Position numbers and translations under genes: made by a program. A stretch of DNA of 64,000 bases from Loigolactobacillus bifermentans DSM 20003 (lineage in GTDB: Bacteria; Bacillota; Bacilli; Lactobacillales; Lactobacillaceae), in the NCBI RefSeq assembly GCF_001434575.1, contig NZ_AZDA01000043.1:1-64000 (forward strand), written 5' to 3'. The first letter of the stretch is position 1. The number at the start of each line of letters is the position of its first letter. Under the pieces are notes generated by a model. That model searched no databases. It was not told the origin of the DNA and saw nothing but the letters and a program-made list of their open reading frames with translations. This document shows, piece by piece, positions 9,194-64,000 of this stretch.

Positions 9194-9227
9194 AAAATGC
9201 GATTCTCGTTTGAGAGTCGCATTTTTT
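9194..9227 (+). terminator. Terminator after HAD gene
   Basis: AAAATGCGATTCTC-GTTT-GAGAGTCGCATTTTTT, one mismatch in a 13-bp stem. Confidence 0.85.
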
Positions 9228-9232
9228 AGCAT

Positions 9233-9398
9233 AAGACTGGACAATCAGCGGAAAGGAGACCTTTGCGACAGCAAAGGTACCTTATAGACCTTAGCTGGTG
9301 CCATGTGTCTTGCGGTGCGGTCTGCCGCCACAAGACTGGACAACCAGTGGAAATCAGACCTTTGCGACAGCAAAGATACCCTATAGTTTTTAGCTGGT
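9233..9398 (+). repeat. Two tandem copies of a structured repeat (locus A)
   Basis: Two units, 9233-9299 and 9331-9398, both begin AAGACTGGACA. Each has an outer stem (ATCAGC/GCTGGT at 9244-9249 and 9294-9299; ACCAGT/GCTGGT at 9343-9348 and 9393-9398) enclosing an inner hairpin CCTTTGC-GACA-GCAAAG(G). Between them sits a further hairpin with GTCTTG (9307-9312) and CAAGAC (9331-9336) arms. The G-U type pairs only work if the plus strand is the RNA. The same architecture, with different stem sequences, recurs at 62094-62197 and 63537-63739. Here no plus-strand gene follows; the last bases overlap the end of the gdx gene. A 27-codon ORF starts at 9303. Confidence 0.8.
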
Positions 9399-17450: not shown

Positions 17451-17582
17451 AAAAAAAACAGCCTTTTTGCCTGTGCAAAAAGACTGTCCGTGATTGTCAT
17501 TAAGGACTGTATCTTCCTTCGCAGGTTTTAACCAGAGCAGGTTCGGTGGGTATGATCTCAGCCATTGCGGCACCCCAGATAC
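17451..17582 (-). promoter_or_regulatory. TPP riboswitch with intrinsic terminator upstream of thiE
   Basis: Minus strand 17582-17509: GTATCTGGGGTGCC, GGCTGAGATCATACCC, GAACCTGCTCTGG, CTGCGAAGGAAGATAC, the THI-box order. A terminator follows: CAGTCTTTTTGC-ACAG-GCAAAAAGGCTG with eight T (17451-17486), ending just before the thiE ribosome site. Transcription-termination OFF switch. Confidence 0.95.
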
Positions 17583-17711
17583 GTTAATTAAGTTAACAAG
17601 GTAAAAGTAGCACATCTTTTGAGAAAGCGCAACCACTTTTTTTAGAATCATTGCGCTGTGTGTTTCAGCCAGCCGGTATGCGGCTGGGCCTGAAGTTGAG
17701 TTTGAACTTTT

Positions 17712-21560: not shown

Positions 21561-21706
21561 AAAAAGCCAGCAGCTCGCAACAAAGCAGAGCCACTGGCAG
21601 TATTTCACTACTCGTTTGATCCCTACGTTGGCATTATCCAAATCAGGTAAAATGGGTCAAAGCGCAGAACGCTTACTCTCAGCCCACTGATGTGAGCTCC
21701 CCGATG
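21561..21706 (-). promoter_or_regulatory. TPP riboswitch with terminator upstream of thiC
   Basis: Minus strand 21706-21616: CATCGGGGAGCTC, GGGCTGAGAGTAAG, GACCCATTTTACCTGATTTG, GGATAATGCCAACGTAGGGA, a canonical THI box. The terminator GCCAGTGGCTC...GAGCTGCTGGC followed by TTTTT lies at 21561-21598. The ~90 bases between it and thiC hold the ribosome site only. Confidence 0.96.
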
Positions 21707-21863
21707 TCATTTAATTGGCCTAACCTTAAACCCAGGTTTCAATTTTTGTCAACTTGTTTTTGAAAACGGTTTCTAAAACGCGACGGTAAAAGCGCACTAG
21801 GGCAAGCCATCATCACTTTGAAAAACGAAATTGTTTATTTTTGAAATTAAAAAACAACGCACG

Positions 21864-54528: not shown

Positions 54529-55140
54529 AAAGCCCCTAAAAAGGGGCCCAGCAAAGACTACCAACCGCTTACCGTCGTATTAGTCTAGTTGTTATGATTA
54601 TCGAATGGATCTCGATAATCTCGCTTCGTCATTTTATCGTTGAGTTGATCTTCAGCCTCTTGTTCTCGAATATATTTTGCAATTGTTTTTTGATTCAGTC
54701 CTACTGTATTAACATAATATCCTCTTGCCCAAAAAACTCCTGTTACCGTATTTATATTTTAAATTGGCGTGTCGCTCGTGTATGATGATCGCACTACGCC
54801 CTTTTAAATAACCTACAAAGCTAGCCACACTCATTTTAGGTGGGATTTTTACGAGCATATGGACGTGATCTGGCATTGCGTGTGCCTCAATTATTTCAAC
54901 ATCTTTCAATTCACATAAACGTCGTAAAATTCTCCCGATGTCTGCTCTTAATTTGCCATAAATAACTTTTCTACGATACTTGGGTGTAAAAACCAAGTGA
55001 TACTTACAATTCCATCTCGTATGTACTAAGCTACTATCGTCTTTTGTTTGTGAAGACATAAAACATCCTTTCGATTCTATTTTTGGTTGGTAGGATGGCT
55101 ATTATTACGTATTGGAATTGATTTTTTTTGAACAGTTGGT
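54529..55140 (-). mobile_element. IS200/IS605-family element (tnpA only)
   Basis: Contains a Y1-type transposase gene and flanking hairpins typical of the family: GCCCC-TAAAAA-GGGGC near 54531-54546 downstream, and ATCCT...AGGAT with TCGATTC inside at about 55066-55098 upstream. No tnpB is present and no target duplication is expected. Exact ends are not determined. Confidence 0.7.
54585..55059 (-). pseudogene. tnpA: IS200-type transposase TnpA, frameshifted
   Basis: The frame opens with HTRWNCKYHLVFTPKYRRKV and has the HUH motif MPDHVHMLVKIPP. At a run of six T (about 54742-54747) it shifts: the original frame ends after RSFLGKRILC, whereas one base fewer restores FWARGYYVNTVGLNQKTIAKYIREQE (core GYYVNTVGLNQKT, carrying the catalytic Tyr region) up to a TAG at 54585. 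A one-base expansion of the homopolymer has probably inactivated it, unless frameshifting occurs there. Confidence 0.85.
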
Positions 55141-62093: not shown

Positions 62094-62197
62094 GGAGGAC
62101 CATGTTTCCATCGTGGCAGTTTTCGTCCGCCAGAATGGTCATCCTCCGGAAATAAGATTTTGCGATAGCAAAATCTAACCTTAGAGAATTTAGGAGG
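62094..62197 (+). repeat. Structured repeat, locus B (leader of acetyltransferase operon)
   Basis: Order: GGAGGACCATG (62094), a hairpin with CCAT..TGGC and GCCA..ATGG arms, ATGGTCA linker, TCCTCC (62142-62147), inner hairpin GATTTTGC-GATA-GCAAAATC (62156-62175), a conserved single strand (CTAACCTTAGAGAATTTA), then GGAGG (62193-62197), which is the ribosome site of the next gene. TCCTCC can pair with either the upstream or the downstream GGAGG. A 17-codon ORF starts at 62102. Confidence 0.8.
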
Positions 62198-62204
62198 TCT
62201 CGCC

Positions 62205-62765
62205 ATGACAATACCACTGGCTAATTTGATCAACGCCGGAACGGTTCATTGGACCGGCGATTTGCCACATCAAGTTGATGCAATTGTTGCGCAAGCCAGC
62301 AATAACTTGATCGACTTCAATCAAACAACAACTGAAACAAAACGCCGCGCCATACTTGGTCAACTCTTTGGTGCACCACTAGACCAAGCCACGGTGCTCA
62401 ATCCGCCGTTTCAAACTGATTTTGGTGCCCATACGTTTATTGGCAAACACGTCTTCATTAATCGTGACTGCTTTTTCGTGGATCTTGGTGGGGTCTATAT
62501 CGAAGATAACGCTTTGATTGGACCTCGTGTCATGCTCATTTCGGTTGGACATCACGAAGATCCCGCTTATCGTCGTGATTTAGTGCTTAAGTCAGTCCGT
62601 ATCAAACAAGGCGCATGGCTGGGTGCCAACGTTACCGTGCTCCCTGGTGTCACCGTGGGCGAGCATGCAATCGTTGGTGCAGGGGCCGTGGTCACCAAAA
62701 ACGTTCCCGCCAATACGGTTGTGGCAGGCGTCCCTGCAAAAGTCTTACGAACGATTCAGCAATAG
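62205..62765 (+). CDS. Hexapeptide-repeat O-acetyltransferase (maltose/galactoside acetyltransferase group)
   Basis: 186 residues. Left-handed beta-helix of hexapeptide repeats (HTFIGKHVFINRDC to VTVGEHAIVGAGAVVTKNVPANTVVAGVPAKVL, core GEHAIVGAGAVVTKNVP). The catalytic His sits in LISVGHHEDP. Transfers acetyl from acetyl-CoA to a sugar or related hydroxyl; substrate unknown. The stop TAG is the first part of TAGAGATTTTAGGAGGA, the conserved 3' end of the structured repeat, which supplies the SDR ribosome site. Confidence 0.88.
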   Translation: MTIPLANLINAGTVHWTGDLPHQVDAIVAQASNNLIDFNQTTTETKRRAILGQLFGAPLDQATVLNPPFQTDFGAHTFIGKHVFINRDCFFVDLGGVYIEDNALIGPRVMLISVGHHEDPAYRRDLVLKSVRIKQGAWLGANVTVLPGVTVGEHAIVGAGAVVTKNVPANTVVAGVPAKVLRTIQQ

Positions 62766-63536: not shown

Positions 63537-63739
63537 GGAGGGCCATGCGTCCTGCGGCGAGGTTTGACGCCACAAGACTGGACATCCTCCGAAATACGAT
63601 TTTGCGATAGCAAAATCTAACCTTAGAGATTTTAGGAGGAGCCATGTTTCCTACGAGGGTGATTGCGCCCGTAGGAATGGACATCCTCCGAAATACGATT
63701 TTGCAGTAGCAAAATCTAACCTTAGAGATTTTAGGAGGA
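63537..63739 (+). repeat. Structured repeats, locus C (two copies before the NAD(P)H-binding gene)
   Basis: Copy C1 (63537-63640) and C2 (63635-63739) share the GGAGG used between them. C1 hairpin arms: GTCCTG..GGCG and CGCC..CAAGAC. C2 arms: TTCCTACG (63648-63655) and CGTAGGAA (63670-63677), a different but perfectly paired sequence. Each continues TGGACA-TCCTCC-GAAATAC-GATTTTGC-N4-GCAAAATC-TAACC-TTAGAGATTTTA-GGAGGA. The last GGAGGA is the ribosome site for ATG 63744. ORFs of 21 codons start at 63545 and 63644 and both end with DILRNTIL plus one residue. Confidence 0.85.
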
Positions 63740-63743
63740 ATAT

Positions 63744-64000
63744 ATGGTTAAAATTCTAATTCTCGGCGCAAATGGCGCCACTGCAAAAATTGTGACTAAC
63801 CGCTTACTGGCGGAAACTAATGCTGATCTTATTCTGTACTTACGCAACGCAGAACGTCTATCACAGTACAATGATCATCCTCGCGTCACCCTCGTTGAAG
63901 GCGACGCGACAGATGTTGCCGCACTAAGCACGGCCATGGCAGGGGTAGCTATCGTTTACTCGAACCTTGGTGGTACGGCCTTAGCAACCGATACCAAGGC
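63744..64000 (+). CDS. NAD(P)H-binding protein (NmrA/SDR-a type), truncated by window end
   Basis: First 85 codons only. VKILILGANGATAKIVTNRLL is the Rossmann motif; LILYLRNAERLSQY and VEGDATDVAALSTAMAGVAIVYSNLGG follow as in NAD(P)H-binding flavin reductase-like proteins. ATG at 63744 is five bases after TTTAGGAGGA of repeat C2. Third gene of the operon; the stop lies outside. Confidence 0.85.
   Translation, partial: MVKILILGANGATAKIVTNRLLAETNADLILYLRNAERLSQYNDHPRVTLVEGDATDVAALSTAMAGVAIVYSNLGGTALATDTK

Follow-up and report, generated by a model that had tools for sequence, protein, structure and literature searches.

The intergenic repeats found in the window, by which we mean the whole 64,000-nt stretch of Loigolactobacillus bifermentans DNA that was analyzed, are best read as members of a mobile, structured family that is associated with Shine-Dalgarno sequences, is of the MITE/BOX type, and inserts in an unusual way. 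The argument is built on the anatomy of the repeat unit, on the pairing of an internal segment with the end of the unit, on the position of the repeats before start codons, and on one exact insertion with seven empty orthologous sites; mobility as such is what we infer from comparing these sequences. At its center stands a feature that the sequence-only reading of the window had overlooked: the outer stem's 3' arm usually serves the next gene as its Shine-Dalgarno sequence.

Anatomy of the Repeat Unit

The repeat is structured and about 98 nt long. From 5' to 3', a unit consists of GCCATG, hairpin 1, TGG(A)CA, a segment designated X', GAAAT, hairpin 2 (arms GATTTTGC/GCAAAATC), a linker of about 15 nt, and a terminal segment X. 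In most units X is AGGAGG, and X' is then usually TCCTCC. Within an array, 0–2 nt separate the X of one unit from the CCATG of the next. The copies in the window are given below with their matches to a covariance model of the genome's own units; the boundaries of C1 were set by analogy with the empty site at rpoC.

9211..9298, + strand: unit A1, degenerate, ending in AGCTGG (9293-9298); model match 9211-9299, 44.3 bits
9299..9397, + strand: unit A2, with X' ACCAGT at 9343-9348 and X AGCTGG at 9392-9397 as pairing partners; model match 9295-9398, 91.8 bits
62093..62098, + strand: AGGAGG upstream of unit B, read from the sequence
62099..62197, + strand: unit B, with X' at 62142-62147, hairpin 2 at 62156-62175, and X AGGAGG at 62192-62197, ending 7 nt before the ATG at 62205 of a gene with hexapeptide-transferase repeats (Pfam PF00132); model match 62094-62198, 105.4 bits
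63536..63541, + strand: upstream X (AGGAGG) before unit C1, just after the upstream gene's stop codon, read from the sequence
63542..63639, + strand: unit C1, beginning GCCATG-hairpin 1-TGGACA, with X' TCCTCC at 63585-63590 followed by GAAAT, hairpin 2 (GATTTTGC/GCAAAATC) at 63598-63617, a linker, and X AGGAGG at 63634-63639; model match 63537-63640, 101.9 bits
63640..63738, + strand: unit C2, of the same anatomy as C1, with X' at 63684-63689 and X AGGAGG at 63733-63738; the ATG at 63744 follows after 5 nt (start codon taken from the sequence); model match 63636-63739, 106.8 bits

All five copies that the sequence-only reading had claimed are recovered by the model as members of the family. 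The stems, loops, and conserved segments that it listed are present as described, except that one of its 5' hairpins, GTCCTG/CAAGAC, holds a C.A mismatch. Downstream of A2, no start codon with a long frame was found within 3–16 nt on the same strand.

Copy Number, Arrays, and Distribution

A 216-bp query holding C1 and C2 gave 55 matches in the 3.13-Mb genome. From the stretches around these matches, 81 units of about 100 nt were aligned into a covariance model, R1, which matches the window's genome at least 148 times (150 of 1283 candidates were scored). When the window and the fetched stretches were searched with a profile, 151 units were recovered, a count that includes partial ones. They form 80 arrays, of which 33 are single units, 29 hold two, 13 hold three, four hold four, and one holds five.

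The repeat was found with R1 in all eight Loigolactobacillus genomes, and in none of 52 genomes drawn from the rest of the family and order. The latter result reflects the narrowness of the model, since a second model, R2, built from 71 units of several species, matches 13 genomes outside the genus. With nine candidates scored per genome, R2 matched 21 of 397 Lactobacillaceae genomes in eight of 40 genera, some of these genera being represented by a single weak match. Pediococcus would account for six of the 21, judging by a genome in their genus whose match places are equal to those in Pediococcus parvulus. Pediococcus parvulus also gave a match to a DNA pattern, and there are homologues among the weaker matches, some of which look like chance; at one locus of this species (L222), a guaB-like start (gene named by eye) is preceded by a unit of another type, in which hairpin, linker, and end keep their order. 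Units preceding start codons were likewise read at L225 and L232/L234 in other Lactobacillaceae, with gene names again given by eye. The outer parts of the unit and X' vary across the genus and are not conserved. In L. jiayinensis and L. zhaoyuanensis there is a unit type that ends in GTAGAG instead of AGGAGG, and its X' is not complementary to that end (by eye). At distant sensitivity, no match was found in a plasmid collection searched with C1/C2 and an L. backii array, or in a phage collection searched with C1/C2; viral contigs gave no match to one DNA pattern of the TTTC-type hairpin 1.

Units also occur inside larger repeats. A composite repeat of about 330 nt (by eye) is present in five copies (L035, L182, L183, L184, and L189), each with one unit and, upstream of it, a terminator-like hairpin in which a change in one arm is matched in the other from copy to copy; in none of the five does a gene start follow the unit in the unit's sense. 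In other Lactobacillaceae (L221, L223, L229, L051, and L059) the unit lies within larger repeated blocks with long complementary ends, and in some of these blocks a second unit type adjoins on the opposite strand (both by eye). At L172 and L042, another inserted sequence interrupts the unit in or just behind hairpin 1.

An Exact Insertion between rpoB and rpoC

The junction of rpoB and rpoC is where insertion is resolved to the base. In all seven congeners, compared at one genome per species, the site is empty, with a short spacer that reads TAGGAGG (six species) or AAGGAGG (one), then TCAGCTAA or TCGGCCAA, and then the start codon GTG; the sequence right after the Shine-Dalgarno of the congeners is TCAGCTAAGTG or TCGGCCAAGTG. 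In the window's genome, TAGGAGG and TCAGCTAAGTG are set exactly 98 nt apart by one complete unit, which runs from GCCATG to TTTAGGAGG and lies directly 3' of the native TAGGAGG. The rpoB stop codon, which is the TAG of TAGGAGG, and the distance from the Shine-Dalgarno to rpoC are unchanged (by eye). Because the unit ends in TTTAGGAGG, rpoC keeps both its Shine-Dalgarno and its spacing. It is worth pointing out that TAGGAGG now flanks the insertion on both sides, but that each arrayed unit brings its own X; a duplicated 7-bp target (TAGGAGG) looks identical to an AGGAGG carried in by the element. Between the ends of the rpoC insertion, GCCATGATTCC and AAAGCATTTAGGAGG, no terminal inverted repeats were seen by eye, which sets the repeat apart from MITEs of the DDE type.

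Other genes show the presence and absence of units with flanks too diverged for the junction to be placed to the base. Orthologues that are free of a unit and have their own Shine-Dalgarno were found for a ferritin-like gene (L067 versus L017), for plsX (L124 versus L011), and, by eye, for gyrA in all seven congeners; unit-free orthologues, likewise with a Shine-Dalgarno of their own, exist for an oxidoreductase gene in six congeners and for two other genes in three each. In the pair L. binensis and L. jiayinensis, one locus carries a unit (L074) and its counterpart does not (L076). A ksgA-like gene (named by eye) is preceded by one unit in L. backii and by two in L. iwatensis. In L. iwatensis, the last 29 nt or so of a unit stand alone before a gene (L171, with the orthologue L164), and such solo 3' ends occur in the window's genome as well (L235 and L236); they resemble the solo repeats that recombination would leave behind. 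The pair L163/L170, in which the gene start could not be located, was left out of these comparisons.

In our judgment, the repeat is probably a mobile element of the MITE/BOX type, non-autonomous and about 98 nt long, that inserts in one orientation 3' of Shine-Dalgarno sequences. Integration would take place directly 3' of AGGAGG and in a single orientation, and since the element ends in a copy of AGGAGG, the downstream gene would retain a Shine-Dalgarno at the original distance while the target would be recreated at each insertion. Further insertions, or recombination between units, would then lengthen and shorten the arrays. Catalysis would be provided in trans by an enzyme that recognizes hairpin 1, X', hairpin 2, and X in the folded single strand, perhaps in the manner in which the ends of IS200/IS605 elements are read. 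A side effect on translation is predicted by folding, in that X' could mask the Shine-Dalgarno wherever X' is not itself held by the upstream X and hairpin 1.

The search for a helper enzyme yielded none. The window does contain one transposase gene of the relevant type:

54660-55017, - strand: gene of an IS200-like Y1 transposase that is split between two frames, with two PF01797 pieces

A Y1 transposase (PF01797) is present in only two of eight congeners, and the repeat in eight of eight; an IS200-type Y1 transposase was therefore rejected as the general helper, and a helper that has since been lost is compatible with these counts.

Pairing of X' with the Downstream X

Among the 124 units with letters on both sides, X' pairs with the downstream X at five of five positions, GU allowed, in 114. 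The combinations include CCTCC/GGAGG (79 units), CCAGC/GCTGG (17), CCTTC/GAAGG (6), and, once each, CCACC/GGTGG and CCGGC/GCCGG. Tandem junctions at which the upstream and the downstream X differ are informative about the partner: in all 16 of them X' fits the downstream X better, and the upstream X was thereby ruled out as its conserved partner. If units recombine inside hairpin 1, as the arrays suggest, the domain from X' to X would stay whole. The X'–X pairing is kept also in copies that have no downstream gene. In first units of arrays, a full match to X' stands just upstream in 27 of 61, versus nine of 61 after shuffling.

One extension of the mobile-element explanation is that X' acts as a guide: the repeat would home to a Shine-Dalgarno by base pairing, rebuild the Shine-Dalgarno upon insertion, and retarget when X' and X change together, as the subtypes CCAGC/GCTGG, CCTTC/GAAGG, and CCGGC/GCCGG might have done. 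That X' and X covary even in copies away from gene starts speaks for it. The first units with X' CCAGC at L020, L005, L178, and L004, which stand after GGAGG, speak against it, as does the GTAGAG type with its lack of a complement; recombination in hairpin 1 could explain the former. On balance, we consider the guide doubtful.

Covariation of the Stems and a Possible Translational Switch

Over 23 pairs and 81 units (80 distinct rows, identical units being dropped before the pairing counts and the tree-based test), 94.7% of cells are paired against 83.5% in shuffled alignments, none of 500 being as high, and pairing drops to 37–49% when the partners are slid. Changes on both sides occur in 14 pairs, a count that none of the 500 shuffles reached; further pair types, one of five measures, were no more numerous than in the shuffles (28 versus 28.8). 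A tree-based null of our own making, modelled on that of R-scape, gave nine column pairs at E < 0.05 with 127 units and 60 simulations. These include 15–36, 16–35, and 11–40 in hairpin 1 and 63–78 in hairpin 2, and the outer stem is borderline, with E values of 0.05 and 0.1 at ranks 10 and 13 of 5253. With 40 simulations, seven pairs reached E < 0.05, of which four are true pairs of hairpins 1 and 2; the other three are non-pairs at positions close together in hairpin 1 and probably reflect subfamilies. All of these E values are rough, because recombination between units violates the tree. In a cross-species test of 71 units, one of the two best-ranked pairs falls in hairpin 2 and the other in hairpin 1, and the next (E ~0.03) are non-pairs. 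Hairpins 1 and 2 covary, and the outer stem covaries by the counts while being borderline on the tree. The claim that this is a structured family with compensatory changes is thus borne out by the pairing counts and by the tree-based covariation.

Such changes invite a reading in RNA, and a cis-acting translational switch, which is compatible with mobility, is the alternative that fares best; we regard it as possible but on the whole not likely. Here X', as an anti-Shine-Dalgarno, would alternate between the upstream X and the terminal X: paired with the upstream X it would extend hairpin 1 and leave the Shine-Dalgarno free, paired with the terminal X it would hide the Shine-Dalgarno, and the balance would be shifted by a bound protein, a ligand, the ribosome, or temperature. 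Predicted folding agrees with the two states. Across 52 arrays, X' is predicted to pair with the upstream X at a mean of 0.54 and with the Shine-Dalgarno at 0.06, and the openness of the Shine-Dalgarno in full arrays is 0.35, versus 0.36 in 32 control genes (p = 0.68). When the folded context is cut to 60 nt and lacks the upstream X and hairpin 1, openness falls to 0.15 against 0.35 in the controls (p = 2e-5), and the Shine-Dalgarno pairs with X' at 0.62. The conservation of pairs speaks against the switch, since the upstream X fits X' worse in the 16 mixed junctions, so that the first state would be weak or absent there, and the X'–X pairing persists where there is no downstream gene to control.

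The downstream genes do not point to a common signal, either. Of 60 downstream proteins, 20 were scanned, all picked by eye and ten of them as likely housekeeping proteins. These ten match GyrA, GyrB, RpoC, PlsX, SerC, FabF, AccC, RibBA, RadC, and PpaC; the ten others include TilS, MarR, ferritin-like, ABC, and Usp domains and one protein without a family (at L012). No common regulon or metabolite theme was found among these 20 of 60 proteins, half of them chosen as likely housekeeping, which counts against the switch, and a metabolic regulon was rejected on the basis of this sample.

Wobble pairs bear on the question of RNA or DNA, for a C.A on one strand is a G.U on the other. In the outer stem they favor the sense strand, as the switch would have it (GU 17 versus CA 5; p = 0.017, with units that are not independent), and in hairpin 1 they do the opposite (GU 7 versus CA 83, mostly at a few subfamily-wide positions). 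Hairpin 1 is therefore not like a sense RNA at those positions; the positions being few and spread by subfamily, they represent few independent events. Hairpin 2 is even (GU 5 versus CA 6). As wobble use favors neither strand, single-stranded DNA read by a transposase would explain the covariation equally well. A complement that acts in RNA, in single-stranded DNA, or in both would fit this mixed evidence, and a function of the repeat in RNA is possible, judging from the predicted folds. The sequence-only reading had taken paired change as the mark of selection on RNA structure, and in this it went too far: the family behaves as an inserted repeat with a precise empty site, and the wobbles point both ways.

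Position before Start Codons

Of 79 arrays that are followed by more than 150 nt, the 11 with an incomplete last X were left out and the other 68 were assessed for position; the test asked for a start codon with a long frame 3–16 nt past the end of the match. The last X is Shine-Dalgarno-like (GGAGG, GAAGG, GGGGG, or GGTGG) in 64 of the 68, and a start codon follows just after it, in sense, in 56 of these 64. Five of the eight without a start are copies of the one composite repeat, and another runs into an assembly gap. The four arrays that end in GCTGG or GCCGG have no start codon after them (0/4; Fisher p = 6e-4 versus 56/64). On the antisense strand the test was passed by one of 79 arrays, and at random positions by 562 of 4000. 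Taken with the presence of the repeat in all eight genomes of the genus, these counts agree with the expectation of many homologues, often directly before start codons. In the other congeners, a looser test placed 44 of 96 arrays before a start codon, and 0 of 96 in antisense.

There is, however, a control that limits what can be concluded. AGGAGG outside arrays, in the same stretches and under the same test, stands before a start in 21 of 27 cases, from which 56/64 is not clearly different (p = 0.07). Since a lone AGGAGG is mostly found before starts, the position of the arrays alone does not show targeting. An ordinary tandem or interspersed repeat without site specificity, which inserts anywhere between genes and whose survivors before genes supply the Shine-Dalgarno, would give much the same picture; it would also accommodate the four complete arrays with another X away from gene starts and the composite copies in other places. 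What it leaves unexplained is the exact junction 3' of TAGGAGG at rpoC and the near absence of antisense arrays (1/79), and for these reasons we think it unlikely. A mobile element that inserts 3' of the Shine-Dalgarno accounts for both, and the points counted against it are that a single insertion is resolved to the base, that its target duplication can be read in two ways, that the search for a helper found none, that its pre-start position is what AGGAGG alone gives, that arrays before genes are fewer in the other congeners, that the five composite-repeat copies have no start codon, and that the GTAGAG type has no complement.

Leader mini-genes, in which the ATG of GCCATG behind AGGAGG would open a short coupled peptide in each unit, are very improbable, for while the ATG is present in 121 of 128 units, 51 of the 121 frames stop after 4–5 codons, the rest vary, mostly between 14 and 29 codons, and seven units carry ATA; a conserved leader peptide was ruled out by these reading-frame lengths.

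Relation to Known Repeats and RNA Families

With Rfam 15 at the gathering score, the window gave two matches, neither of them on the units:

17497-17587, - strand: TPP riboswitch (Rfam, gathering score)
21602-21713, - strand: TPP riboswitch (Rfam, gathering score)

At a lax threshold there was no match around B and C up to E = 5, and around A there were three with E of 0.23–3.2, far below gathering, of which RsaJ (E = 3.2) overlaps A2. For 12 related loci, the matches up to E = 0.5 were a group II intron, mir-584, and TeloSII_ncR30, none of them on the matched units. The group II intron (RF00029, L225:6-76) scores above gathering; it comes from another lactobacillus genome, where an array follows some 500 nt farther downstream. 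The family had gone unrecognized in the sequence-only reading, and with no credible Rfam match on the units this stands. A known MITE had been named there as something that would undo the claim of a new structured family; the repeat is indeed MITE-like in kind, but no named MITE that was compared matches it. Our search of the openly accessible literature found no description of the family. Candidate structured RNAs of Lactobacillales are found in Weinberg et al. 2010 (PMC2864571); in the portion of that report available to us, most are listed under an Rfam number, so that the Rfam searches include them, and Lacto-int, which is given no Rfam number there, lies outside that coverage.

The closest parallels in habit are the BOX, RUP, and SPRITE repeats of Streptococcus pneumoniae, which are small, numerous, folded, non-coding, and spread over the chromosome (PMC3049150). 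BOX elements hold a variable number of tandem boxB units and are thought to affect co-transcribed genes, and the proteins of BOX open reading frames are described as lacking good Shine-Dalgarno candidates (PMC3049150). The repeat described here is similarly small, numerous, folded, and variable in its number of tandem units; it differs from that account, in the part available to us, by its insertion at a Shine-Dalgarno, the restored Shine-Dalgarno, and the internal complement of its end (PMC3049150). This separation from BOX is by description.

By analogy, the arrangement of the unit also recalls that of other mobile elements. At the ends of IS200/IS605 and REP/RAYT elements, a hairpin carries at its 5' foot a short complement of the terminal cleavage site, and IS200/IS605 elements insert in a fixed orientation 3' of a fixed short target, with a tetranucleotide as the guide complement. 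The order hairpin, target complement, hairpin, linker, and target copy, in a single orientation, is like that of an IS200/IS605 right end. The 5' guide that defines such ends (PATE and REP included) has its counterpart in X'-hairpin 2-linker-X, fully complementary in 114 of 124 units. Unlike in IS200/IS605, the complement is five to six nt long, and the Y1 transposase is confined to two of eight congeners. Translational riboswitches and leaders, for their part, sequester the Shine-Dalgarno with an anti-Shine-Dalgarno that has a competing anti-sequestor. The predicted folds of the repeat resemble them in both respects; unlike riboswitches, it stands in about 150 copies before unrelated genes, and its outer parts and X' are not conserved across the genus.

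Significance

What is new here is a family, missed by the Rfam searches, in Loigolactobacillus, Pediococcus, and some other Lactobacillaceae, together with its Shine-Dalgarno-ending arrays before start codons and the exact 98-nt insertion at rpoC. If the mobile-element explanation is true, a gene-dense genome would have been colonized by a repeat that aims at the Shine-Dalgarno and then replaces it, and its spread would be tolerated even before gyrA, gyrB, and rpoC without switching essential genes off. If the guide is true as well, this would be a guide-directed mobile repeat for which the ribosome-binding site is a safe harbor. The family would offer a natural system in which to study how small repeats choose their sites and whether a complement of 5–6 nt guides them. 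As a by-product of this spread, more than 50 genes may have gained a common translational element.
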